Assembly (NCBI GenBank): GCA_003601775.1
Contig: PIYN01000023.1
Coordinates: 1-35,884 of the forward strand
From: Candidatus Bathyarchaeota archaeon
GTDB lineage: Archaea; Thermoproteota; Bathyarchaeia; TCS64; PIYN01
Length of the DNA: 35,884 nt
Direction of reading: 5' to 3'
Position 1 is the first letter of the stretch. The number at the start of each line of letters is the position of its first letter. This document shows, in pieces, positions 10,587 through 32,480 of this stretch. The position numbers were made by a program, and so were the translations under genes. The notes under the pieces were generated by a model, which was given only the letters and a program-made list of their open reading frames with translations, was not told the origin of the DNA and searched no databases.

Positions 10587-11819
10587 TTAGGGCCTACTTA
10601 TCTTCCTCTGGGTGGGGCGTTTCCTCGGCTCCTCCTTCACCTTCCTCAGCGAGCGGTCCAGGTCGTTGCAGAGCTCGTCGAGGGCTGTTAGGAGGTCCCA
10701 CCCCTTGGCCTCCGCGTGGAACTGTCGGAGGGGTCCATGGATGAGGGCCTTGATCTCGTACCTGGTCCGATTTCCGCCTATGTCCCTCCTCTTCAATTTC
10801 ACGGTCACCTCCTCTATCTGGGGGTAGAAGCGTATATTCCTCTCGATCAGCCTCCTGATCTTCTCCTCGGCGACAGAGGCCTCGAAGAACCCGTCTTCGT
10901 CCGTCAGCCCCACTATGGAGATCGGGACCCGCTCCTCCCCCTCCCTGAGCCTCAAGAGGAGGGAGACGATCTCCCTGGGGGTGAGGATCCCAAGGAGTTC
11001 TCCCCCGACCCCTTCAACGATACAGGCGCTCTTCTCCTCCTCAACAAACCCTCGGGCGACCTCGGAGCAGGGGGTCTGGGGGCCAACAGTGAAGGGGTGA
11101 AGATCCATGATGCCCTCCACCGGCCCGTCCAATCTACCTATCGCCTCCCCGACGCGCTCACCCGGCTCGGTCCCGCTTACGGGGGCGACGAAGTGATAGA
11201 CGATGTTCATCGCTGTGACGATGCCAAGGAGGCGCTCTCCATCTAAGACGGGCAGATGGCTTATCCTATGGTCGAGCATCAATCTCCTGGCGGAGGAGAT
11301 CTTGCTCTGCTTCTCTATCGTGATGACGGGGTGCTTCATCACCTTGCTCACGGGGATCTCCCTTAGATCCCGTGTGGTCGAGAGTGCTTTAGTGACCTCG
11401 ACCTGGGAGAGGATGCCGACGACGTCGCCCCACTCCACGATGGGGATCGCCCTGGCGTCGTTTCGGGACATGAGCTCCGCCGCCTCGTAGACCCGCCTAT
11501 CAGGTGTGAGGGTCCCCACGAATCTCCAGATGCGTCTCAGCCTCGTCCGGTCTGGGTGGACGACCTTCAGGAGGCCCCTGAGGGTGGCGAGGCCGACCTT
11601 ATCCTCACCGACGACCGGGGCCTCGTAGAGGCCCGTCTCTTGGAAGTAGCCGAGGAGCTTGGAGGCGGTATCTGAGGGGCTGAAGACCTCGGGGGCCTCC
11701 CTCATGAGCTGGGAGGCCTCGAGTAGGGCTATGTCTCTGACTTCCGGAGAAGACAACTCCACAAACCTCACTGAAGGTATGTCGACGACCCTATATATAC
11801 CCATCTGAGGAAGCCCCAT
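10587..11819 (-). CDS. Four-CBS-domain protein fused to a C-terminal ribosome-hibernation (HPF/RaiA-like) domain
   Basis: A 410-residue protein. Four CBS repeats cover roughly residues 25-90, 100-150, 157-210 and 233-290; good examples are ARAIPIVEWGDVVGILSQ and ISHLPVLDGERLLGIVT. From about 295 to 395 the sequence changes to an S30AE/HPF-like alpha-beta domain: VTVKLKRRDIGG, a second strand, then HAEAKGWDLLTALDELC and DLDRSLRKVKEE, matching the RaiA/HPF end. CBS pairs bind adenine nucleotides and HPF domains sit in the ribosomal mRNA/tRNA channel, so a nucleotide-sensing ribosome-silencing factor is the natural inference. The short basic tail (RKRPTQRK) may touch rRNA. The start may be the ATG at 11804. 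It is divergent from the trpS leader. Confidence 0.8.
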   Translation of the reverse strand: MGLPQMGIYRVVDIPSVRFVELSSPEVRDIALLEASQLMREAPEVFSPSDTASKLLGYFQETGLYEAPVVGEDKVGLATLRGLLKVVHPDRTRLRRIWRFVGTLTPDRRVYEAAELMSRNDARAIPIVEWGDVVGILSQVEVTKALSTTRDLREIPVSKVMKHPVITIEKQSKISSARRLMLDHRISHLPVLDGERLLGIVTAMNIVYHFVAPVSGTEPGERVGEAIGRLDGPVEGIMDLHPFTVGPQTPCSEVARGFVEEEKSACIVEGVGGELLGILTPREIVSLLLRLREGEERVPISIVGLTDEDGFFEASVAEEKIRRLIERNIRFYPQIEEVTVKLKRRDIGGNRTRYEIKALIHGPLRQFHAEAKGWDLLTALDELCNDLDRSLRKVKEEPRKRPTQRKISRP

Positions 11820-11926: not shown

Positions 11927-12016
11927 GTGGAGGGTAGGAGCGTGTATCACTCGGACTGGGCAGGAGATCCCTCCTGACGGAGGGGCGTGAAGTCAGAAGC
12001 AGTCGCTACCTTCCAC
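11927..12016 (+). promoter_or_regulatory. Structured leader RNA of trpS
   Basis: An outer stem pairs 11927-11937 with 12006-12016 (11 base pairs, one G-U), and its 5' arm contains GGAGG, the binding site for the leader peptide. Inside, CCCTCC (11969-11974) pairs with GGAGGG (11979-11984) around a TGAC loop holding the leader stop codon TGA (11975-11977). GACTG (11954-11958) can also pair with CAGTC (12000-12004). The segment 11929-11959 is nearly identical to 24980-25012 before trpB2. Stems were found by eye; regulation is inferred. Confidence 0.6.
11942..11977 (+). CDS. Tryptophan-containing leader peptide upstream of trpS
   Basis: A GTG-started frame of 11 codons plus TGA, (M)YHSDWAGDPS. 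GGAGG at 11929-11933 is a good ribosome binding site 8 bases before the GTG. The peptide has one Trp codon at position 6, preceded by Asp, and its stop lies in the loop of a six- to seven-base-pair hairpin. A second peptide of exactly the same length at 24995-25030 before trpB2 shares residues 1, 5, 6 and 11. By analogy with bacterial trp and tna leader peptides, the ribosome on this frame may report tryptophan or charged tRNA-Trp; that is inference. Confidence 0.6.
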   Translation: MYHSDWAGDPS

Positions 12017-12114
12017 CTGATCTTCTAAGGTTCTTCCAACTCTGGGACGTGAGTTGTCTCCAAGGGTTGGACTCGATGGATTTTGGAGGTTCAGGGTTGG
12101 GTATGTGAGGTGAT

Positions 12115-13242
12115 ATGGAGATGGTGAAGAAGGAGGAGATGGTCGTCACCCCCTGGAAGGTCTCAGGGAGAATAGACTATGAGAAACTGATAAAGCAGTT
12201 CGGGACGCAGCCCATCGACGAGGAACTCCTCGAGAGGATAAGGGGGCATACGGGCCGCCTCCATCTCCAGCTGCGTAGGGGCCTCTTCTTCTCCCACAGG
12301 GACCTCGACTGGATCCTGGACAAGTATGAAGCCGGGGAGAAGTTCGTCCTATATACCGGGAGGGGTCCCTCTGGACCCGTCCACTTGGGGCACCTCGTCC
12401 CTTGGATCTTCACGAAGCACCTCCAGGACGCCTTCGACGCGAAGCTCTACTTCCAGATGACCGACGATGAGAAGTTCCTCGTGAACCCGGAGCTGACGTT
12501 GGAGGACACGGCGAGGTTCACCTATGAGAACGCCCTCGACCTCATCGCCTGTGGCTTCGAGCCGGGGAAGATGGTGATCATCAGGGATGTTAAGGACATC
12601 GGGCACCTCTACAGGATCGCCCTGAGGGTCGCGAAGCACGTGAACTACTCCACAGTCAAGGCGATCTTCGGCTTCGAGGACTCCTCGAACATTGGGATCA
12701 TCTTCTTCCCAGCCATCCAGGCGGTCCCCTGCTTCATCGCCTCGGAGGAGGAGGGACACAACGTCCCGGTCCTCATCCCAGCCGCCATCGACCAAGACCC
12801 CTACTGGAGGATGACCCGGGACATCGCCTCGAAGCTGGGCTACTACAAGCCCGCGCAGATGCACTGTAAGTTCCTTCCGGGCCTGGGGAAGGGGGGGAAG
12901 ATGTCGGCCTCGATGCCCGAGACCTGCATCTTCACCACGGATACCCCCGAGGAGGTGGAGCAGAAGGTCTGGAACGCCTTCACGGGGGGGAGGCCGACGG
13001 TGAAGGAGCAGAGGGAGCTCGGCGGGGACCCGAGCATCTGCACCGTCTATGCCTACTTCTACTACCTCTTCGAGGAGGACGACGAGGAGATCGCGGAGCT
13101 GGAGAGGAGGTGCCGCACGGGCGGCGTCCTCTGTGGTGACTGCAAGAAGAGGCTCACGGAGAGGATCAACAGATTCCTGAAGGTGCACCAGAGGAGGAGG
13201 GAGGAGGCGAAGGACATCTTGGACAAGTTCCTAATGGAGTAG
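12115..13242 (+). CDS. trpS: Tryptophanyl-tRNA synthetase
   Basis: Charges tRNA-Trp. The 375-residue product is of the archaeal/eukaryotic type: N-terminal VVTPWKVSGRIDYEKLI, then GRGPSGPVHLGH with the HIGH motif as HLGH near residue 88, and the KMSKS loop as GGKMSASMP near residue 262. The C-terminal helical anticodon region ends RRREEAKDILDKFLME. GTGAGGTGAT just before the ATG is a strong ribosome binding site; the ATG at 12139 is an alternative. It has an unusually long leader (about 200 bases from the predicted transcript start) containing the Trp leader peptide and stem-loops. The creatininase gene follows after 51 bases. Confidence 0.95.
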   Translation: MEMVKKEEMVVTPWKVSGRIDYEKLIKQFGTQPIDEELLERIRGHTGRLHLQLRRGLFFSHRDLDWILDKYEAGEKFVLYTGRGPSGPVHLGHLVPWIFTKHLQDAFDAKLYFQMTDDEKFLVNPELTLEDTARFTYENALDLIACGFEPGKMVIIRDVKDIGHLYRIALRVAKHVNYSTVKAIFGFEDSSNIGIIFFPAIQAVPCFIASEEEGHNVPVLIPAAIDQDPYWRMTRDIASKLGYYKPAQMHCKFLPGLGKGGKMSASMPETCIFTTDTPEEVEQKVWNAFTGGRPTVKEQRELGGDPSICTVYAYFYYLFEEDDEEIAELERRCRTGGVLCGDCKKRLTERINRFLKVHQRRREEAKDILDKFLME

Positions 13243-24979: not shown

Positions 24980-25069
24980 GGAGGTGTAGGAAGCGTGCAT
25001 CAGCTGGACTGGCTAGAAAGGTCGTCCTAGAGGAAGGACGACTGCCCAGGAACTGGTATTGTATCCTCC
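24980..25069 (+). promoter_or_regulatory. Structured leader RNA of trpB2
   Basis: GGAGG (24980-24984), the leader ribosome binding site, can pair with CCTCC at 25065-25069, extended by a few weaker pairs. An inner hairpin pairs GTCGTCCT (25021-25028) with AGGACGAC (25035-25042), and the leader stop TAG (25028-25030) lies at the top of it. From GGAGG to GGACTGG the sequence is nearly identical to the trpS leader. AGTCCAGC (24959-24966) could alternatively pair with GCTGGACT (25003-25010). Unlike at trpS, the 3' half also encodes the conserved TrpB2 N-terminus in another frame. Confidence 0.6.
24995..25030 (+). CDS. Tryptophan-containing leader peptide upstream of trpB2
   Basis: A GTG-started frame of 11 codons plus TAG, (M)[10 protein letters not shown], with GGAGG 10 bases before the GTG. 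It has the same length as the trpS leader peptide (M)YHSDWAGDPS, with Met1, Asp5, Trp6 and Ser11 identical, and the stop again at a hairpin apex. The frame overlaps the upstream extension of trpB2 in a different register. Regulation by tryptophan supply is inferred from the two downstream genes. Confidence 0.6.
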
Positions 25070-25122
25070 CAGACCTCCCCGAACCGCTTCCACCGATCCT
25101 CGATCCCACTTCTAGGGAACCG

Positions 25123-26388
25123 GTGAAGCCAGAGCAGTTGGAGGTGCTCTTCCCAAAGGAGCTGATAAGGCAGGAGGTAAGCGGAAGAAGGTGGGTGCCG
25201 ATTCCGGGGGAGGTTAGGGAGGTGTACCGCCTATGGCGTCCGACGCCCCTCTACAGGGCGACTGGACTGGAGAGGGCGTTGAAGACGCCGGCGCATATCT
25301 ACTACAAGTATGAGGGAGTGAGCCCTCCGGGGAGCCATAAGCCGAATACCGCGGTGGCACAGGCCTACTATAACCGGGAGGAGGGGACGGAGCGGCTGAC
25401 GACGGAGACAGGCGCCGGGCAGTGGGGGTCTGCCCTCGCCTTCGCAGATATGTTCTTCGACCTCGAGACCATCGTCTACATGGTACGTGTAAGCTATGAG
25501 CAGAAGCCCTATCGACGGGTCTTAATGCAACTCTACGGGGCGAAGGTGTACCCGAGTCCAAGTGACAGAACCGAGGTGGGTAGGAAGATCCTCGAAGAAG
25601 ACCCTGACAATCCAGGGAGTCTGGGGATCGCGATAAGCGAGGCGGTGGAGGAGTGCATCAGGGGTGAGAGGACGAAGTACTCCCTTGGGAGCGTCCTCAA
25701 CCACGTCCTCATGCATCAGACGGTCATAGGGTTGGAAGCACTGGAGCAGCTAAGGGAACTCGAGGAGTATCCGGATAAGGTCATAGGGTGCGTCGGCGGG
25801 GGGAGCAGCTTCTCAGGCCTCTTCTGGCCCTTCTATTATGAGAAGAAGACGGGAAGGTCGCCGAAGCCTGTGGAGTTCATAGCCGTCGAGTCCACGGCCT
25901 GCCCTAGCCTTAGCCTGGGCGAGTACCTCTACGACCATGGGGACAGCGGGCGCATCATTCCCCTCGTGAAGATGTACACCCTCGGCCATGAGTTCATACC
26001 TGATCCCATTCACGCAGGGGGCCTCAGGTATCATGGGATGGCACCCACTCTCTCCCTCCTCGTGAGGAGGGGTGAGGTGGAGGTGAGGGTCTACGACCAA
26101 GTCGAAGTCTTCAACGCGGCCTCCCGCTTCATTAGGGCGGAGGGCTTCATACCGGCACCGGAGCCCGCTCACGCCATCAAGGCGGTGATCGACGAGGCCC
26201 TCAGATGTAAGGAGACGGGAAAAGAGGAGACCCTCCTATTCCTGCTCTGCGGACATGGCCACTTCGACATGAAGGCATACGACGACTTCCTCCAAGGAAG
26301 ACTCCCACCCTACAGATACCCCAGGGAGAAGATAGAGGAGTCCTTAGATCGGCTCAAAAAGCTCTATCCCTGGATAACCAAACGTTAA
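25123..26388 (+). CDS. trpB: Tryptophan synthase beta subunit, TrpB2 type (N-terminus probably extends upstream)
   Basis: A PLP enzyme condensing indole with serine to tryptophan. [15 protein letters not shown] contains the PLP lysine, [15 protein letters not shown] the substrate loop and [11 protein letters not shown] the phosphate-binding glycines. The [12 protein letters not shown] region and overall length are of the TrpB2 class, which often works without TrpA; no trpA is adjacent. The GTG at 25123 is the first ordinary start codon, but the same frame upstream reads [14 protein letters not shown] then [12 protein letters not shown], the conserved TrpB2 N-terminus, with no ATG, GTG or TTG back to a stop at 24913. 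Real synthesis may begin at a CTG (25009 or 25042) or by frameshift from the leader peptide. Confidence 0.9.
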
Positions 26389-26777: not shown

Positions 26778-28439
26778 TTGATCTCGAGTAGGAGGGCTAT
26801 TTCAACTCTCCAGGCGGTTGTCATCATCGTCATCGTCGTGGCGGCGGCAGTAGGTGGTTACTGGTGGTATACCTCAACAAGAAAGCCAGCAGCACCTGAG
26901 GAAATTGTCTTGACCGTCCCAAGAGGAGGAGTCGTTATGACCTTGGACCCGGCCGAGTCCTACTCTGTCCCAACACACGAGGTTATTGTCCCAGTCTATG
27001 AGACACTTCTCCGATACGATCCCGAGAACACAAGCCGTCTCATTCCCTGGCTGGCTGAGTCCTGGGAGGTCTCGGAGAACGGCATGAGTTACATCTTCCA
27101 TCTAAGACAGAATGTTACTTTCCATGATGGAACGCCGTTCAATGCCTCTTGTGTCCTATATTCATTTAACAGGACGTATTCATTGGGGTTAGGGCCCTCA
27201 TGGATGATGTCTCCAATAAACTTCAGCGCATGTTCCATTATTGACACATACACTGTGAATATTACGTTGAAGTATCCATATGCACCCTTCATATATTCCA
27301 TGGCTGCTCAGTGGGGACCTTTAATTGTCAGTCCTACATTCTGCAAAGTTCATGCAACTCCAGAAGATCCATGGGCTCACGAATATCTGAAGGAACATAT
27401 GTGCGGTACGGGTCCATATATGCTCGAGGAATGGGTTCCAGAGGATCATGTCACATTAGTTAAAAATCCGAACTACTGGAGGGGTTGGTCAGGCAAACAC
27501 GTAGACAAGATCTATATGCCTCTTATTGCTGAGTCCTCCACAAGGCGGATGAGACTCGAAGAGGGTACTATCGATATAGGAGGACTAAATCTTGAGGATG
27601 CCATAGCTGTTAATGGAACGGAGGGAGTGATCGTTGAAGTCGTTCCAAGCCTAAACAACCTAATGATCTTCATGAATACCCAGAAACCACCGCTGAATAA
27701 TAAGCTTGTCAGACAGGCTATCTCCTACATGTTCAACTATACTGGTGCCTTAGAAACGATAAGACATGGTTTTGGCTCACAGGCCCGTGGTCCCTTACCC
27801 GCGTCCCTTTGGGGCTGGGATCCGGATTGTCCGCAGTACTCGATGAATCTCACAAAGGCTCAGGAACTTATCGAGCAAGCAGGCTATGCCCCGGAGAACA
27901 TTACTCTGGAGGTTTGGTATGTAAGTACATCCGATGAAGAAAGAAGATGTGCCGAGTTGCTACAGGCTGCTGCACAACAGATCGGTGTGACAATAACTCC
28001 AAAGGGCGTGACCTGGTCGGCCCTTGATAGTGCGATGCATCCAGGCTCAGGAAATGCAACAGATGCCCCTGATATGGCCATGCTGTACTGGTATCCAGAT
28101 TATGCAGATCCTGATGATTATCTGGGGCAACTGTACTACTGCTATAACGACACCGTCCCCACCGATACCTCCGCATATCCGTGGTTCAATTATGGATACT
28201 ATACAAATGCGACTCTCAACAAGATCTTGGAGGAGGCTGCTCAGACTAATAATCTTACTAAGAGGATCGAACTCTACAGAAAGGCTCAGCGAATAATAGT
28301 CGAGGATGCGCCGGCGATCTTTGTCTTCGATGAACCAGCTGTATTGACCTATAGGAGCTGGGTAAAGGGATATTACTTCAATCCCTGCTATGTAGGCACT
28401 ATAGACTTCTACTCCATCCACATAGAGGGAAGACCTTAG
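26778..28439 (+). CDS. Peptide/nickel-type ABC transporter substrate-binding protein (SBP_bac_5)
   Basis: A 553-residue extracytoplasmic solute-binding protein of the DppA/OppA family. The N-terminus SSRRAISTLQAVVIIVIVVA is a class III, pilin-like signal: basic residues, then A-I-S and a hydrophobic stretch. This type is used by many archaeal binding proteins and processed by a PibD/FlaK-type peptidase. FHLRQNVTFHDGTPF near residue 110 is a family signature. Several N-X-S/T sites suggest glycosylation. It starts at TTG 26778 behind GGAGG and heads a five-gene operon. Composition is more AT-rich than dppD and dppF. The ligand could be oligopeptides, nickel complexes or sugars, since archaeal members vary. 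Confidence 0.92.
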   Translation: MISSRRAISTLQAVVIIVIVVAAAVGGYWWYTSTRKPAAPEEIVLTVPRGGVVMTLDPAESYSVPTHEVIVPVYETLLRYDPENTSRLIPWLAESWEVSENGMSYIFHLRQNVTFHDGTPFNASCVLYSFNRTYSLGLGPSWMMSPINFSACSIIDTYTVNITLKYPYAPFIYSMAAQWGPLIVSPTFCKVHATPEDPWAHEYLKEHMCGTGPYMLEEWVPEDHVTLVKNPNYWRGWSGKHVDKIYMPLIAESSTRRMRLEEGTIDIGGLNLEDAIAVNGTEGVIVEVVPSLNNLMIFMNTQKPPLNNKLVRQAISYMFNYTGALETIRHGFGSQARGPLPASLWGWDPDCPQYSMNLTKAQELIEQAGYAPENITLEVWYVSTSDEERRCAELLQAAAQQIGVTITPKGVTWSALDSAMHPGSGNATDAPDMAMLYWYPDYADPDDYLGQLYYCYNDTVPTDTSAYPWFNYGYYTNATLNKILEEAAQTNNLTKRIELYRKAQRIIVEDAPAIFVFDEPAVLTYRSWVKGYYFNPCYVGTIDFYSIHIEGRP

Positions 28440-28521
28440 TGCAAGCTATTCTCCCCCTCTTTTTCTTCATAAAAGGGAAGGTATATTTATCTGCGATTTT
28501 TAAGTTGTGGGGGGTTAGAAA

Positions 28522-29529
28522 TTGAAGCTGTGGCAGTATCTTATAAGACGTGTCATGTTAATAGTACCATTACTTATAGGCGTTTCCCTCATAACTTTCA
28601 CAGTCTCCCATCTCGTCCCAGGCGATCCTGCCCGCTTGGCAGCGGGATTACATGCCTCTCCAGAGACTGTAGAGGCTATGAGGCATAGACTTGGACTTGA
28701 TAAACCCTTACCCGTTCAGTATTATCTCTACATGATGAGACTTCTCCATGGAGATCTAGGAACTTCCATTATGACCAGAAGACCCGTAATCAAAGATATA
28801 ATGATCAGATGGCCAGGTACTATTGAACTAACTACCGCTGCTATGTCAATCATCATCATCCTTGGCATTCCCTTGGGAGTCATCTCTGCTACACACAGGG
28901 ATAAGTTGATAGATCATGCCTCAAGGATCTTCTCATTGTTAGGGGTCTCCATGCCTTCCTTCTGGCTTGCTCTCATTCTCCAGCTCATCTTCTGCAAATA
29001 TCTGAAAATCTTTCCTGTGGGTTATAGGATCGATCCAGCAATAGGACTCCGGAGGATCACAGGATTCAATGTTTTAGATAGCCTATTAACACTTAATTTT
29101 CCTGCCCTTGTCAATAGTATATGGCACATGATACTCCCAGCCTTTACTCTGGGATTTCAAGGAATTGCAACCGTCCAGAGGCTTCTCAGGTCAAACATGC
29201 TTGACTCGTTGACTCAGGATTATGTGAAGTTAGCAAAGGCAAAGGGAATGCCAGAGAGAATAGTCATCTATAAACATGTGTTGAGAAACTCAATGATACC
29301 CGTTGTAACAGTCTTGGCCCTTATGTTTGGGGGTATGTTAGGGGGCACCTTTATCATCGAAACCATCTTCAGTTGGCAAGGGTTAGGTCGGTATGGTGCA
29401 AGTGCAATCATAAACTTAGATTTTCCAGCGATTATGGGGGTGACACTTATATATGCGGTCATCTTCGCGGTAGCGAATTTGGTCGTGGATATACTTTATG
29501 CCTATCTTGATCCGAGGATAAGATATTAA
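28522..29529 (+). CDS. dppB: ABC transporter permease, DppB type
   Basis: A 335-residue inner permease with six membrane segments. The N-terminal LIRRVMLIVPLLIGVSLITF and PGDPARL are classic for DppB/OppB, and the EAA coupling motif is in AKAKGMPERIVIYKHVLRNS. Partner of the DppC-type permease 20 bases downstream. The start is TTG at 28522. TATATTTAT and ATTTTTAAG between the binding protein and this gene (about 28481-28505) could be an internal promoter. AT-rich like the binding protein. Confidence 0.92.
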   Translation: MKLWQYLIRRVMLIVPLLIGVSLITFTVSHLVPGDPARLAAGLHASPETVEAMRHRLGLDKPLPVQYYLYMMRLLHGDLGTSIMTRRPVIKDIMIRWPGTIELTTAAMSIIIILGIPLGVISATHRDKLIDHASRIFSLLGVSMPSFWLALILQLIFCKYLKIFPVGYRIDPAIGLRRITGFNVLDSLLTLNFPALVNSIWHMILPAFTLGFQGIATVQRLLRSNMLDSLTQDYVKLAKAKGMPERIVIYKHVLRNSMIPVVTVLALMFGGMLGGTFIIETIFSWQGLGRYGASAIINLDFPAIMGVTLIYAVIFAVANLVVDILYAYLDPRIRY

Positions 29530-29548
29530 AAAGGAGGAGAAAGAGAAG

Positions 29549-30448
29549 ATGAATTCCGAATTAGTTAATAAGCATGGAGGTTTAAGGGAGGACCTCTCTC
29601 CGTTTATTAAAGAGTTTAAGCATGCTCTATATATTATAAAGAGGAGCCCTCTAACGCTCTTAGGATTTATCCTATTCTTAATCTTTATCACCATAGCCAT
29701 AGTAGCGCCGATCATCGCTCCATACGATCCCTTTGAAATGCGTTTAAGTGAAGCCTTTCAGCCTCCGAGTTGGAAGCATCCCTTCGGAACTGATGAGATG
29801 GGGAGAGATATCCTAAGTAGGGTACTTTGGGGCTCAAGGATCTCCCTTCGAGTAGGCGTTACAGTGGTTTTGACTGCCCTCTGCATAGGCACGATATTAG
29901 GAGGTATAGCGGGTTATGTCGGTGGTGTCGTCGATGAGGTCATAATGAGAATCACCGATCTCGTCTTGGCATTTCCCTCCATGATCCTTGCCCTGGCGCT
30001 TGCGGCAGCCCTGGGTCCTGGGCTGAATAACGCTATGATTGCGATCAGTGTGACCTGGTGGCCTTGGTACGCTCGTCTGGTCAGAGGACAAGTCCTCTCA
30101 ATTCGTGAGGCTGGGTTTGTTGAGGCTTCGAGGTGTGTTGGGGCGAGTGGATTCAGGATACTCTTCAGGCATATACTTCCCAACGCCTTTGGGCCTGTCA
30201 TTGTCAATGCCTCCATGGATTTCGGCTGGACGATCCTAACTGCAGCGGCTCTAGGGTTCCTCGGCATTGGCGCTCAACCCCCTCAGCCTGAGTGGGGGCT
30301 TATGATTAGCGTGGGGAGGATATACTTCATGGACAAGCCCTGGATAGCCACGTTTCCGGGTCTCGCAATATTCCTTGTGGTTCTAGCCTCGAATCTAATA
30401 GGTGACGGACTAGGGGAGATCCTGAATCCGAGGTTGAGGAGGCGGTGA
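29549..30448 (+). CDS. dppC: ABC transporter permease, DppC type
   Basis: A 299-residue permease. A long cytoplasmic N-terminus leads into LTLLGFILFLIFITIAIVAP, then HPFGTDEMGRDILSRVLWG, diagnostic for DppC/OppC. The EAA loop is ASRCVGASGFRILFRHILPN, and the late GAQPPQPEWGLMI is also a family marker. GGAGGAGAAAGAG before the ATG is the ribosome binding site. The gene changes from AT-rich at its 5' end to GC-rich at its 3' end. The ATPase gene begins 3 bases after its stop. Confidence 0.92.
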   Translation: MNSELVNKHGGLREDLSPFIKEFKHALYIIKRSPLTLLGFILFLIFITIAIVAPIIAPYDPFEMRLSEAFQPPSWKHPFGTDEMGRDILSRVLWGSRISLRVGVTVVLTALCIGTILGGIAGYVGGVVDEVIMRITDLVLAFPSMILALALAAALGPGLNNAMIAISVTWWPWYARLVRGQVLSIREAGFVEASRCVGASGFRILFRHILPNAFGPVIVNASMDFGWTILTAAALGFLGIGAQPPQPEWGLMISVGRIYFMDKPWIATFPGLAIFLVVLASNLIGDGLGEILNPRLRRR

Positions 30449-30451
30449 TCG

Positions 30452-31489
30452 ATGCCTGAGGTTCTACTCAGGGTTAAGAATCTGAGGGTGAACTTCTATA
30501 CCTACGCCGGGGTGGTTAAGGCCTTGGATGGCGTCAGCTTCGAGATCTATAAGGGTGAGGCTTTCGGCCTCGTGGGGGAGACGGGGTGCGGTAAGTCCGT
30601 GACGGCTGCCTCCATCCTCCGATTGGTGGATAAGCCCGGGAGGATCGTCGATGGTGAGATTATCTTCGAGGGGGAGGACCTTCTGAAGAAGTCTGAGAGG
30701 GAGATGAGGGAGATCAGGGGGAGCAAGATCGCCATCGTCTTCCAGGACCCCATGACCTACCTCAACCCCGTCTTGACGATAGGGGATCAGATAGCTGAGA
30801 CGATCAGGGAACATCAGGACCTAACGGTCGAGGCGCTGGAGATAGAGAGGAACGAGTATCACAATACTTCAGCGGAGAAGCCCTCTAAGAAGGCGTTAAG
30901 GGAAGCGGTGCTGAGGAGGGTGGAGGAGGCGTTGAAGATGGTGAGGATGCCGGATCCGAGGGTTGTCATCGACCAGTACCCACACGAGCTCAGCGGGGGG
31001 ATGCGGCAGAGGGCGATGATCGCGATGGCGATAAGCTGTAACCCGAAGTTCCTGATCCTCGACGAGGCGACGACCTTCCTCGACGTCACCATACAGAGGC
31101 AGATCCTCGAGCTGGTGAAGGACCTGAAGGACCGCCTCGGCTGCACCCTCATGATAATCACCCACGACATGGGGATAATCGCCGAGACCTGTGACAGGGT
31201 GGCGGTCATGTACGCCGGGACCATAGCGGAGTGTGCTGAGACGAAGAGGATCTTCAGTAAGCCCCTACACCCCTACACGAGGGGCCTTCTCGATGCCATT
31301 CCACTGCCCACCGAGGACGTCAAGGTCCTCAAGCCGATACCGGGCTTCGTCCCCAACCTCATTAATCCTCCTCCTGGTTGTAGGTTTCATCCGAGGTGCC
31401 CCGAGGCGATGGAGGTCTGTAGCAGGGTGAAGCCGGAGCTCAGGGAGGTGGAGCCAGGACACCAAGTAGCATGCCACCTATACGGATGA
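30452..31489 (+). CDS. dppD: ABC transporter ATP-binding protein, DppD type
   Basis: A 345-residue ATPase energising the transporter. Walker A is GETGCGKSVT near residue 42, the signature is LSGGMRQRAMIAMA, Walker B is FLILDEATTFLD and the switch histidine is in MIITHDMGIIAE. An insertion of about 30 residues (EIERNEYHNTSAEKPSKKAL) lies between the Q-loop and the signature. The C-terminal oligopeptide-transport extension has the four-cysteine pattern typical of DppD/F ([17 protein letters not shown]). Its last 126 coding bases are almost identical to those of dppF. Confidence 0.95.
   Translation: MPEVLLRVKNLRVNFYTYAGVVKALDGVSFEIYKGEAFGLVGETGCGKSVTAASILRLVDKPGRIVDGEIIFEGEDLLKKSEREMREIRGSKIAIVFQDPMTYLNPVLTIGDQIAETIREHQDLTVEALEIERNEYHNTSAEKPSKKALREAVLRRVEEALKMVRMPDPRVVIDQYPHELSGGMRQRAMIAMAISCNPKFLILDEATTFLDVTIQRQILELVKDLKDRLGCTLMIITHDMGIIAETCDRVAVMYAGTIAECAETKRIFSKPLHPYTRGLLDAIPLPTEDVKVLKPIPGFVPNLINPPPGCRFHPRCPEAMEVCSRVKPELREVEPGHQVACHLYG
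31361..31486 (+). repeat. Near-identical 126-base tract at the 3' end of dppD
   Basis: Matches 32352-32477 at the end of dppF with only 3 differences. Homology at the DNA level stops abruptly at the left edge, where only protein-level similarity remains. It encodes the cysteine-rich C-terminal extension. Confidence 0.9.
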
Positions 31490-31502
31490 GGAGAGGAGGG
31501 AT

Positions 31503-32480
31503 TTGAAGAGCGGGGAGGACGTGATCCTGAGGGTCGTGAACCTCAAGAAGTACTTCCCCTTAGGGGGCTGGTTCTTCAAGAGGCGCTCGGGCTACGTGAA
31601 GGCCGTAGACGGGGTGGACCTCGAGATCTATCGTGGGGAGACGGCGGCCCTCGTGGGGGAGTCTGGCTGCGGGAAGACGACCCTAGGCAGGACGATCCTC
31701 AGGCTGATAGAGCCCACGAGCGGGGAGATCTACTTCGAGGGGGTGAACCTGCTGAAGCTGAGCAAGGGGGAGATGAGGAAGATGCGGATGAACATGCAAC
31801 TCGTCCAGCAGGACCCCCAATCGGCGCTGGACCCCAGGATGACCGTCAAGGCGAGCGTTGGAGAGCCTCTGGTGGTCCACGGCATCGCCAGGGGGAGGGA
31901 GTTGAGGAGGAGGGTCCTCCACCTCCTACGCAGGGTCGGTCTGGGGGAGGAGCACATGAACAGGTTCCCCCAGGAGTTCAGCGGAGGGCAGAGACAGCGC
32001 ATCTGCATCGCCAGGGCCCTCGCCCTGAACCCGAAGTTCATCGTCCTCGATGAGCCAACCTCCTCCCTCGACGTCTCCGTGCAGGCCCAGATACTGAACC
32101 TGCTCAAGGACCTGCAGAGAGACCTCGGGCTGACATACCTCTTCATCTCCCACAACCTCAGCGTCGTGCGTTATATCAGCGATCATGTGTATGTCATGTA
32201 TCTCGGGAACATAGTGGAGAAGGCGGAGACGAGGGAGATCTTCAAGAACCCGCTCCACCCCTATACGAGGACCCTCTTCTCGGCGGTCCCCATCCCTGAC
32301 CCGAACCTGAAGAGGAAGAGGCTCAGCATAAAGGGGGAGGTCCCAAGCGCCATTGATCCTCCTCCTGGTTGTAGGTTTCATCCGAGGTGCCCTGAGGCGA
32401 TGGAGGTCTGTAGCAGGGTGAAGCCGGAGCTCAGGGAGGTGGAGCCAGGACACCAAGTAGCATGCCACCTATACAGATAG
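31503..32480 (+). CDS. dppF: ABC transporter ATP-binding protein, DppF type
   Basis: A 325-residue second ATPase of the heterodimeric pair. Walker A is [15 protein letters not shown], the signature is [15 protein letters not shown], Walker B is [16 protein letters not shown] and the switch is [13 protein letters not shown]. The N-terminal [15 protein letters not shown] is the DppF/OppF hallmark. The start is TTG at 31503 behind GAGGAGAGG, 13 bases after dppD. The C-terminal extension is the copied tract shared with dppD. Confidence 0.95.
32352..32477 (+). repeat. Near-identical 126-base tract at the 3' end of dppF
   Basis: Partner of 31361-31486. The three differences are at 32355, in the codon at about 32390-32393, and near the final codon. 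Synonymous positions are otherwise identical, unlike the rest of the two genes. Confidence 0.9.

Follow-up and report, generated by a model that had tools for sequence, protein, structure and literature searches.

Two Trp genes, trpS and trpB2, lie within the window analysed here (one stretch of 35,884 nucleotides from a Candidatus Bathyarchaeota archaeon), and each is associated with a short reading frame that contains a single Trp codon. The question raised by this arrangement is how translation of so short a leader could influence the gene it accompanies. A preliminary description of the window answered in terms of RNA structure, different stems being left intact depending on whether a ribosome pauses on the Trp codon or on the leader stop. 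The underlying idea of a translated leader common to both genes, with the Trp codon as the probable sensor, is supported by the comparisons described below. These comparisons also suggest a different mode of action: the two leaders are probably part of a Trp-responsive regulon in which the reading frame is switched by a -1 slip of the ribosome under Trp-tRNA shortage.

The two leaders and their relatives

All features of the two loci are on the forward strand except where noted. The trpS gene (tryptophan--tRNA ligase, 12115-13242; NF008927, 528 bits, exceeding the cut-off) follows a leader ORF at 11942-11977, whose frame, termed frame 0, reads GTG TAT CAC TCG GAC TGG GCA GGA GAT CCC TCC TGA and encodes V/M-Y-H-S-D-W-A-G-D-P-S. 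Its Shine-Dalgarno sequence, GGAGG (11929-11933, read from the sequence), is located 8 nt 5' of the GTG at 11942, and the ORF carries the motif GTGTATCANYYGGRCTGG. Overlooked at first was that the -1 frame of this leader is open up to trpS, forming an ORF of 50 codons plus stop (11956-12108) that ends 6 nt 5' of the trpS ATG. The divergent neighbour of trpS (10587-11819, reverse strand) encodes CBS domains and a C-terminal S30AE/ribosome-hibernation-like domain. Five tRNAs are the only Rfam 15 matches at gathering score in the window, with no riboswitch or leader family at either leader.

The leader at trpB2 (24995-25030; GTG CAT CAG CTG GAC TGG CTA GAA AGG TCG TCC TAG), like its Shine-Dalgarno sequence GGAGG (24980-24984), was read from the sequence. 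It had been taken for an upstream element, an overlap having been missed. TrpB2, a TrpB-like PLP enzyme, reads in the -1 frame of the leader, and the leader thus overlaps the gene rather than preceding it. Homology to the family (NF009057, 688 bits) runs from 25033 on, and the N terminus extends further 5' in the leader -1 frame, across a hairpin, to a CTG that overlaps the leader UGG, giving a gene at 25009-26388. There is no ATG, GTG or TTG in this frame within 25 codons before 25033, nor back to the previous stop. The region 3' of trpB2 (26778-32480) is occupied by a peptide/nickel-type ABC transporter operon comprising a binding protein, two permeases and two ATPases.

Both window leaders have the form GTG-(T/C)AT-CAN-YYG-GAC-TGG with an early frame-0 stop. 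The exact pattern GTGTATCANYYGGRCTGG is present in 29 of the 32 genomes of one Bathyarchaeia order and in none of 224 other genomes of the class. Two of the three order genomes without it are 58 and 68 percent complete; in the third, G022, the trpS match starts at residue 40, close to a contig end. A search of 84,980 species genomes for exact matches to GTGTATCACYYGGACTGG retrieved 29 stretches, 24 of them titled Bathyarchaeota, one from a 'Thermotogae' bin and four from other bacteria. The 'Thermotogae' MAG contig (L138, QNAP01000249.1) bears a Bathyarchaeia-like leader followed by a trpS start, and since both closely resemble those of G002 and G006, the contig is likely misbinned. Three further matches, on viral contigs, were discarded as chance because their -1 frames reach no Trp gene seen.

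Allowing one mismatch at the fixed positions of the motif gave 45 places, of which 40 leaders, from 29 of the 32 order genomes, were analysed. Those dropped were G023:C74, where a contig end cuts the leader; G022:C102 and G024:C99, which lack such a leader architecture upstream of a Trp gene; and G031:C14 and G001:C26, which differ at fixed positions. The decayed trpS and trpB2 leaders of G005 (see below) are not among the 40. Since the genomes are related, leader counts are not independent, and since the leaders were gathered by the motif, part of its invariance is selection. That said, a survey of 61 genomes for trpS and trpB2, made independently of the motif, showed the leader at 25 of the 27 order trpS 5' regions so collected (main trpS, with the 5' region on the contig), the exceptions being G003, with no leader seen, and G005, with a decayed one. 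It also accompanies 11 of 12 close-type trpB2 genes, G005 again being the exception; the G031 gene is a truncated remnant.

The genes behind the 40 leaders are trpS (25), trpB2 (11), TIGR04076 (2) and trpE (2). Among the 32 order genomes, trpE was found in two, each time with the leader in front of it; in G020, a 75-codon ORF with a weak, below-cut-off match to chorismate mutase (23 bits) intervenes. A family search placed a TIGR04076 gene behind the leader in two genomes, and TIGR04076-like sequence occurs 3' of trpB2 in G018 and G031 (together, loci L099, L100, L101 and L075). This company suggests a Trp- or indole-related role for the uncharacterised family. Six genomes (G010, G018, G020, G027, G029 and G030) have a second, more divergent trpS copy immediately 3' of the first; in G020 and G027 a contig end removes part of it.

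Searches for similar leaders elsewhere were largely negative. The motif minus its last four bases (CTGG) occurs at 49 places in the 32 genomes, against 40 with CTGG; the nine extra places, set beside 20 matches for a reversed control, give no sign of sister leaders for the codons of other amino acids. Motif-less leaders of the same architecture turned up at one of 37 loci in class and order relatives (null 0.45; positive control 19/23), and one of those 37 loci, L036 (G023 trpS), does carry the motif, its leader having been listed under another locus.

Proposed slip site and the -1 frame

The consensus over the 40 leaders is GTG-YAT-CAN-YYG-GRC-TGG, with GTG, CA and TGG in all 40, TAT in 39, and GAC in 37 or GGC in three. 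The third position of codon 3 can be any base, while codon 4 begins with two pyrimidines and ends in G. A strict-list Shine-Dalgarno sequence precedes the GTG in 25 leaders, and frame 0 stops one to six codons after UGG in every one. When each codon in turn was treated as the P site of a -1 slip, with anticodons deduced from the codons, the first two anticodon positions could re-pair in 40/40 leaders only at the codon that precedes UGG, where GRC gives way to GGR, and in at most 8/40 at any other. That codon 5 alone re-pairs explains why codon 4 ends in a fixed G while its first two bases vary, something that peptide conservation does not account for. In the window, the proposed slip sites, G_GAC_UGG, are at 11953-11959 (trpS) and 25006-25012 (trpB2), where the P-site GAC would re-pair on GGA and CUG would replace the hungry codon UGG. 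The site allows a single-tRNA slip rather than conforming to an X_XXY_YYZ heptamer, leaves the third anticodon position mismatched after the slip, and in all 40 leaders puts UGG in the empty A site. A one-tRNA mechanism of this kind has been termed hungry frameshifting (PMC8211752).

The frame that such a slip would enter is kept open. Over 28 of the 29 leaders not at trpB2 (the G005 trpE leader lacks an anchor and was treated separately), 4 of 1202 codons in the -1 frame are stops, as compared to 85 in frame 0, 78 in the +1 frame and a shuffle expectation of 55, and all four are the frame's end beside the gene. With one trpS leader taken from each of nine genera, the counts are 3/420 in -1 versus 23/420 in +1 (Fisher p 3e-5). 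Openness and closing at the gene together give a combined p of 7e-5 if the nine genera are treated as independent, which is not fully the case, and openness alone gives p 0.009 with the least favourable leader of each genus. In all but one of the 29 leaders, the distance from the end of the -1 stop to the first base of the next start codon, taken as the nearest in-frame candidate from usually two to four, is between -13 and +6 nt, and the junctions often read ATGA, TTGA, TAGATG, TAGGTG or TGAATG. A stop that overlaps or abuts the next start in this way is the arrangement expected where translation of one frame is coupled to the next. The exception is the G005 trpE leader, where the -1 frame meets a stop 128 nt before trpE and beyond it stays open as far as a stop that overlaps the GTG of trpE. 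Substitutions in ten close pairs of trpS leaders fall evenly over the -1 codon positions (64/290, 55/299 and 53/294). There is no codon-position bias and no protein-coding constraint was found on these ORFs; conservation thus concerns the absence of stops, and so translation, rather than the peptide.

At trpB2 the -1 frame is the gene itself. TrpB2 reads in this frame in all 11 trpB2 leaders (the G031 gene being truncated), and nine of them have no in-frame ATG, GTG or TTG between the last upstream -1 stop and the CTG. The other two (G003 and G031) have a GTG six codons before the CTG, as does the G005 trpE leader, and none of the 11 has such a codon in the first 16 after the CTG. By comparison, all 16 class-level TrpB2 orthologs from outside the order whose 5' end is present have a canonical in-frame start, which in 14 cases precedes the aligned start by 3-16 codons. 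A product in the -1 frame that lacks a start of its own, behind a site that can re-pair in every leader, is the pattern that -1 frameshifting would be expected to produce. Other ways of changing frame fare poorly. A shift at the frame-0 stop codon was set aside, since the last codons vary and seldom re-pair in -1, and is further disfavoured by the g3 leaders, which stop one codon past UGG. Archaeal mRNA splicing was considered an unlikely frame changer because only about 24 nt separate the GTG from conserved TrpB2 residues.

A natural variant bears on the matter. G005, the only g5 genome with a trp operon (loci L113 near 744, L035 and L050), has a leader before trpE, and its trpS and trpB2 leaders have decayed. 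The trpS leader has UAG where UGG stands elsewhere. Compared with the trpE leader of the same genome, the trpB2 leader has lost a net 2 nt; as a result the GTG behind the Shine-Dalgarno sequence reads in phase into TrpB2, and UGG and CTG have both disappeared. A net loss of 2 nt in place of a shift is as expected if ribosomes normally start at the GTG and then slip back one base.

The strongest competing account dispenses with the slip: TrpB2 and the other -1 ORFs would start at the CUG overlapping the leader UGG, with the frame-0 leader competing and a ribosome paused on that UGG modulating the outcome. The CUG is present in 40/40 leaders and sits where the Met of leaderless class-level orthologs sits (M-x-x-K-I-L versus L-D-R-K-I-L). 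However, a Shine-Dalgarno sequence lies 4-15 nt before the CUG in only 3/40 leaders, as opposed to the 25/40 that have one before the GTG, and initiation at CUG needs neither a frame-0 start, nor a full UGG, nor a G before GRC. The G005 variant, in which the GTG became the TrpB2 start and the CTG was lost, also speaks against this account, which we consider unlikely.

In all likelihood, then, the -1 frame is translated and linked to the downstream gene, and it is quite likely entered by slippage rather than by initiation at CUG. Given slippage, Trp-tRNA shortage is very likely the trigger, though it should be said that we infer all of the regulation. With sufficient Trp-tRNA, UGG would be read, the ribosome would end at the frame-0 stop, and expression of the downstream gene would be low. 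With Trp-tRNA scarce, the A site would stand empty at UGG and the ribosome would wait, allowing the tRNA in the P site, which is that for Asp or, in three genomes, that for Gly, to slip from GRC to GGR; tRNA-Leu would then read CUG and translation would proceed in the -1 frame. At trpB2, the slipped ribosome would make TrpB2 fused to N-terminal residues encoded by the leader. In front of trpS, TIGR04076 and trpE, it would instead cross the -1 ORF, which has no internal stop, and terminate on or beside the next start, coupling translation into the gene.

Hairpins and outer stem

The two inner hairpins of the preliminary description are present as claimed. At trpS, CCCTCC-TGAC-GGAGGG (11969-11984) lies about 9 nt 3' of UGG and holds the leader stop TGA (11975-11977) in its loop. 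At trpB2, GGTCGTCCT (25020-25028) pairs with AGGACGACT (25035-25043) around a 6-nt loop (p 0.007 versus shuffles), with the T of TAG paired and the AG in the loop. Because leader and gene share this stretch in different frames, the second hairpin lies within the TrpB2 coding sequence and must also encode protein.

The covariation check proposed for homologous leaders was carried out on an alignment of 37 of the 40, leaving out the near-duplicates G028 trpS, G006 trpS and G018 trpB2. Of the cells at the six hairpin pairs, 74.8 percent are paired, against a shuffled mean of 65.5, and the covariation score is 0.273 versus 0.167; none of 500 shuffles is as high. The hairpin also exceeds all 500 shuffles in the number of pair types and of cells changed on both sides. 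Slid versions of the hairpin are likewise exceeded in cells paired and in covariation score, but 64 of the 500 shuffles reach its number of pairs changed on both sides. A stop-apex hairpin beats shuffles at p<0.05 in 27 of the 40 leaders and lies 5-9 nt after UGG in 26 of these, the other being a weak g2 match 11 nt away. The remaining 13 comprise every trpS leader of g3, g7 and g10, two of the three from g2 and one from g5. Compensatory change thus does keep the hairpin in most relatives, as had been suggested, but whole genera keep the leader without it. We therefore regard the hairpin as a helper, an optional element 5-9 nt past UGG that may pause the ribosome or stimulate the slip. Hungry slippage is described as independent of a stimulator (PMC8211752).

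A larger role for the hairpin is assumed if frameshifting is programmed at a set ratio, hairpin and slip site fixing the share of TrpB2 and of coupled TrpS regardless of Trp. The 5-9 nt spacer found in most of the 27 hairpin leaders does match the spacing of -1 stimulators as described in PMC8211752. A fixed ratio gives no reason why the A-site codon should be Trp in 40/40 leaders or why the genes served, besides TIGR04076, should be Trp genes, and genera without the hairpin retain the rest of the leader, making this account distinctly unlikely.

The ribosome binding site was further said to be held in an outer stem in both leaders, which proved true of one. At trpS, the 5' arm GTGGAGGGTAG (11927-11937) pairs with the 3' arm CTACCTTCCAC (12006-12016, within the -1 ORF) over 11 pairs, one of them G-U, and covers the Shine-Dalgarno GGAGG; the duplex has an energy of -25.3 kcal/mol versus a shuffled mean of -16.3 (p 0.005). 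At trpB2, the claimed pairing of GGAGG (24980-24984) with CCTCC (25065-25069) amounts to 5 bp over about 80 nt, does not appear in the minimum-free-energy fold, and the best outer duplex is no better than shuffles (p 0.38). Over all 40 leaders, an outer stem reaches p<0.05 in five, none of them among the 11 at trpB2. Where it occurs at trpS, it may re-close the leader Shine-Dalgarno sequence unless a -1 ribosome opens it. A hairpin within the motif, GAGUG-UGUAU-CACUC, appears in many folds; it is broken in g2 and g7 by eye and was not taken as a conserved feature.

These results do not support the choice between stems by a ribosome paused at the Trp codon or stop, since few leaders have an outer stem and some genera that keep the leader lack the inner hairpin altogether. 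Classical attenuation or translational masking, with a stalled ribosome picking between stems and the -1 frame incidental, could draw on the covarying inner stems and on the strong outer stem at the window trpS. It leaves unexplained, however, the near absence of stops from the -1 frame, the missing TrpB2 start codon and the leaders without stems. The conserved alternative stems that mark a leader-peptide attenuator were not found over the 40 leaders; unlike the stems, the frame-0/-1 geometry around G_GRC_UGG is kept in 40/40, and so is access to the downstream gene through the -1 frame. A classical attenuator is thus unsupported and, in our estimate, very improbable. Equally improbable is that the conserved 18 nt serve primarily as a protein or ligand binding site, whether operator or RNA element, the ORFs being of secondary importance. 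Conservation is greater at the level of nucleotides than of the peptide (GUG and CA fixed, UAU in 39/40 and never UAC), and the slip-site model gives no reason for the near-invariance of GUGUAUCA (11942-11949 and 24995-25002), which forms the 5' half of the motif, but a binding site would account neither for a frame-0 stop always within one to six codons of UGG nor for an open -1 frame with a coupled end.

Relation to known systems

The prfB gene, encoding release factor 2, is controlled by an autoregulatory +1 frameshift with a slow A-site codon as sensor, and there, as proposed here, scarcity of the A-site decoder triggers a frameshift whose product relieves the scarcity. The archaeal leaders would thus be a variant of regulatory frameshifting, one that uses a -1 shift at a sense codon and serves four kinds of gene, whereas prfB uses a +1 shift at a stop codon in a single gene. 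In bacterial trpL-type attenuation, Trp codons in a short leader ORF likewise sense Trp-tRNA; the archaeal leaders differ in having one Trp codon and no conserved alternative stems, and in a proposed read-out that is the reading frame and not the choice of stem.

Starvation-induced -1 frameshifting at hungry codons was reportedly described in E. coli by Gallant and co-workers. The proposed event is the same, a vacant A site at a codon short of its aminoacyl-tRNA and a -1 slip of the P-site tRNA. What differs is the setting, an effect of starvation in E. coli versus a site conserved across genera at archaeal Trp genes. The phenomenon has been studied mainly as an E. coli error, and a 2016 review states that no examples were known of starvation-specific trans-frame proteins made by hungry frameshifting (PMC5009743). 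If the mechanism proposed here is correct, these leaders would provide a natural example of such a product, archaea would gain a leader-based amino-acid sensor, and the G005 variant, together with the many sequence variants, could show which features of a hungry site matter. On balance, it is probable that ten archaeal genera share a natural regulatory system that senses amino-acid shortage through a ribosomal slip at a starved sense codon and responds by changing the reading frame, so that an aminoacyl-tRNA synthetase is kept in step with the synthesis of its amino acid.

Two further cases resemble parts of this scheme. Telithromycin induces frameshifting in the ermC leader, and the frame-shifted ribosomes enter the spacer and permit expression of the next gene, as described in PMC5009743; there the trigger is a drug and the hosts are bacteria, while here it would be a shortage of Trp-tRNA, with a stop-free -1 ORF that ends at the gene start. 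The fucA1 gene of Saccharolobus solfataricus, the sole archaeal cellular case reported in a 2021 review, also involves a -1 shift in an archaeon and a putative downstream stem-loop, but it differs in its A-rich heptamer and is not known to have a regulatory role (PMC8211752). As for the leader system itself, no report was found in the open-access (PMC) literature. There is a practical consequence for annotation: the ORF finder starts the window TrpB2 at the GTG at 25123, well inside the family homology, so annotation of these genomes can truncate TrpB2, with loss of N-terminal residues that match the family.
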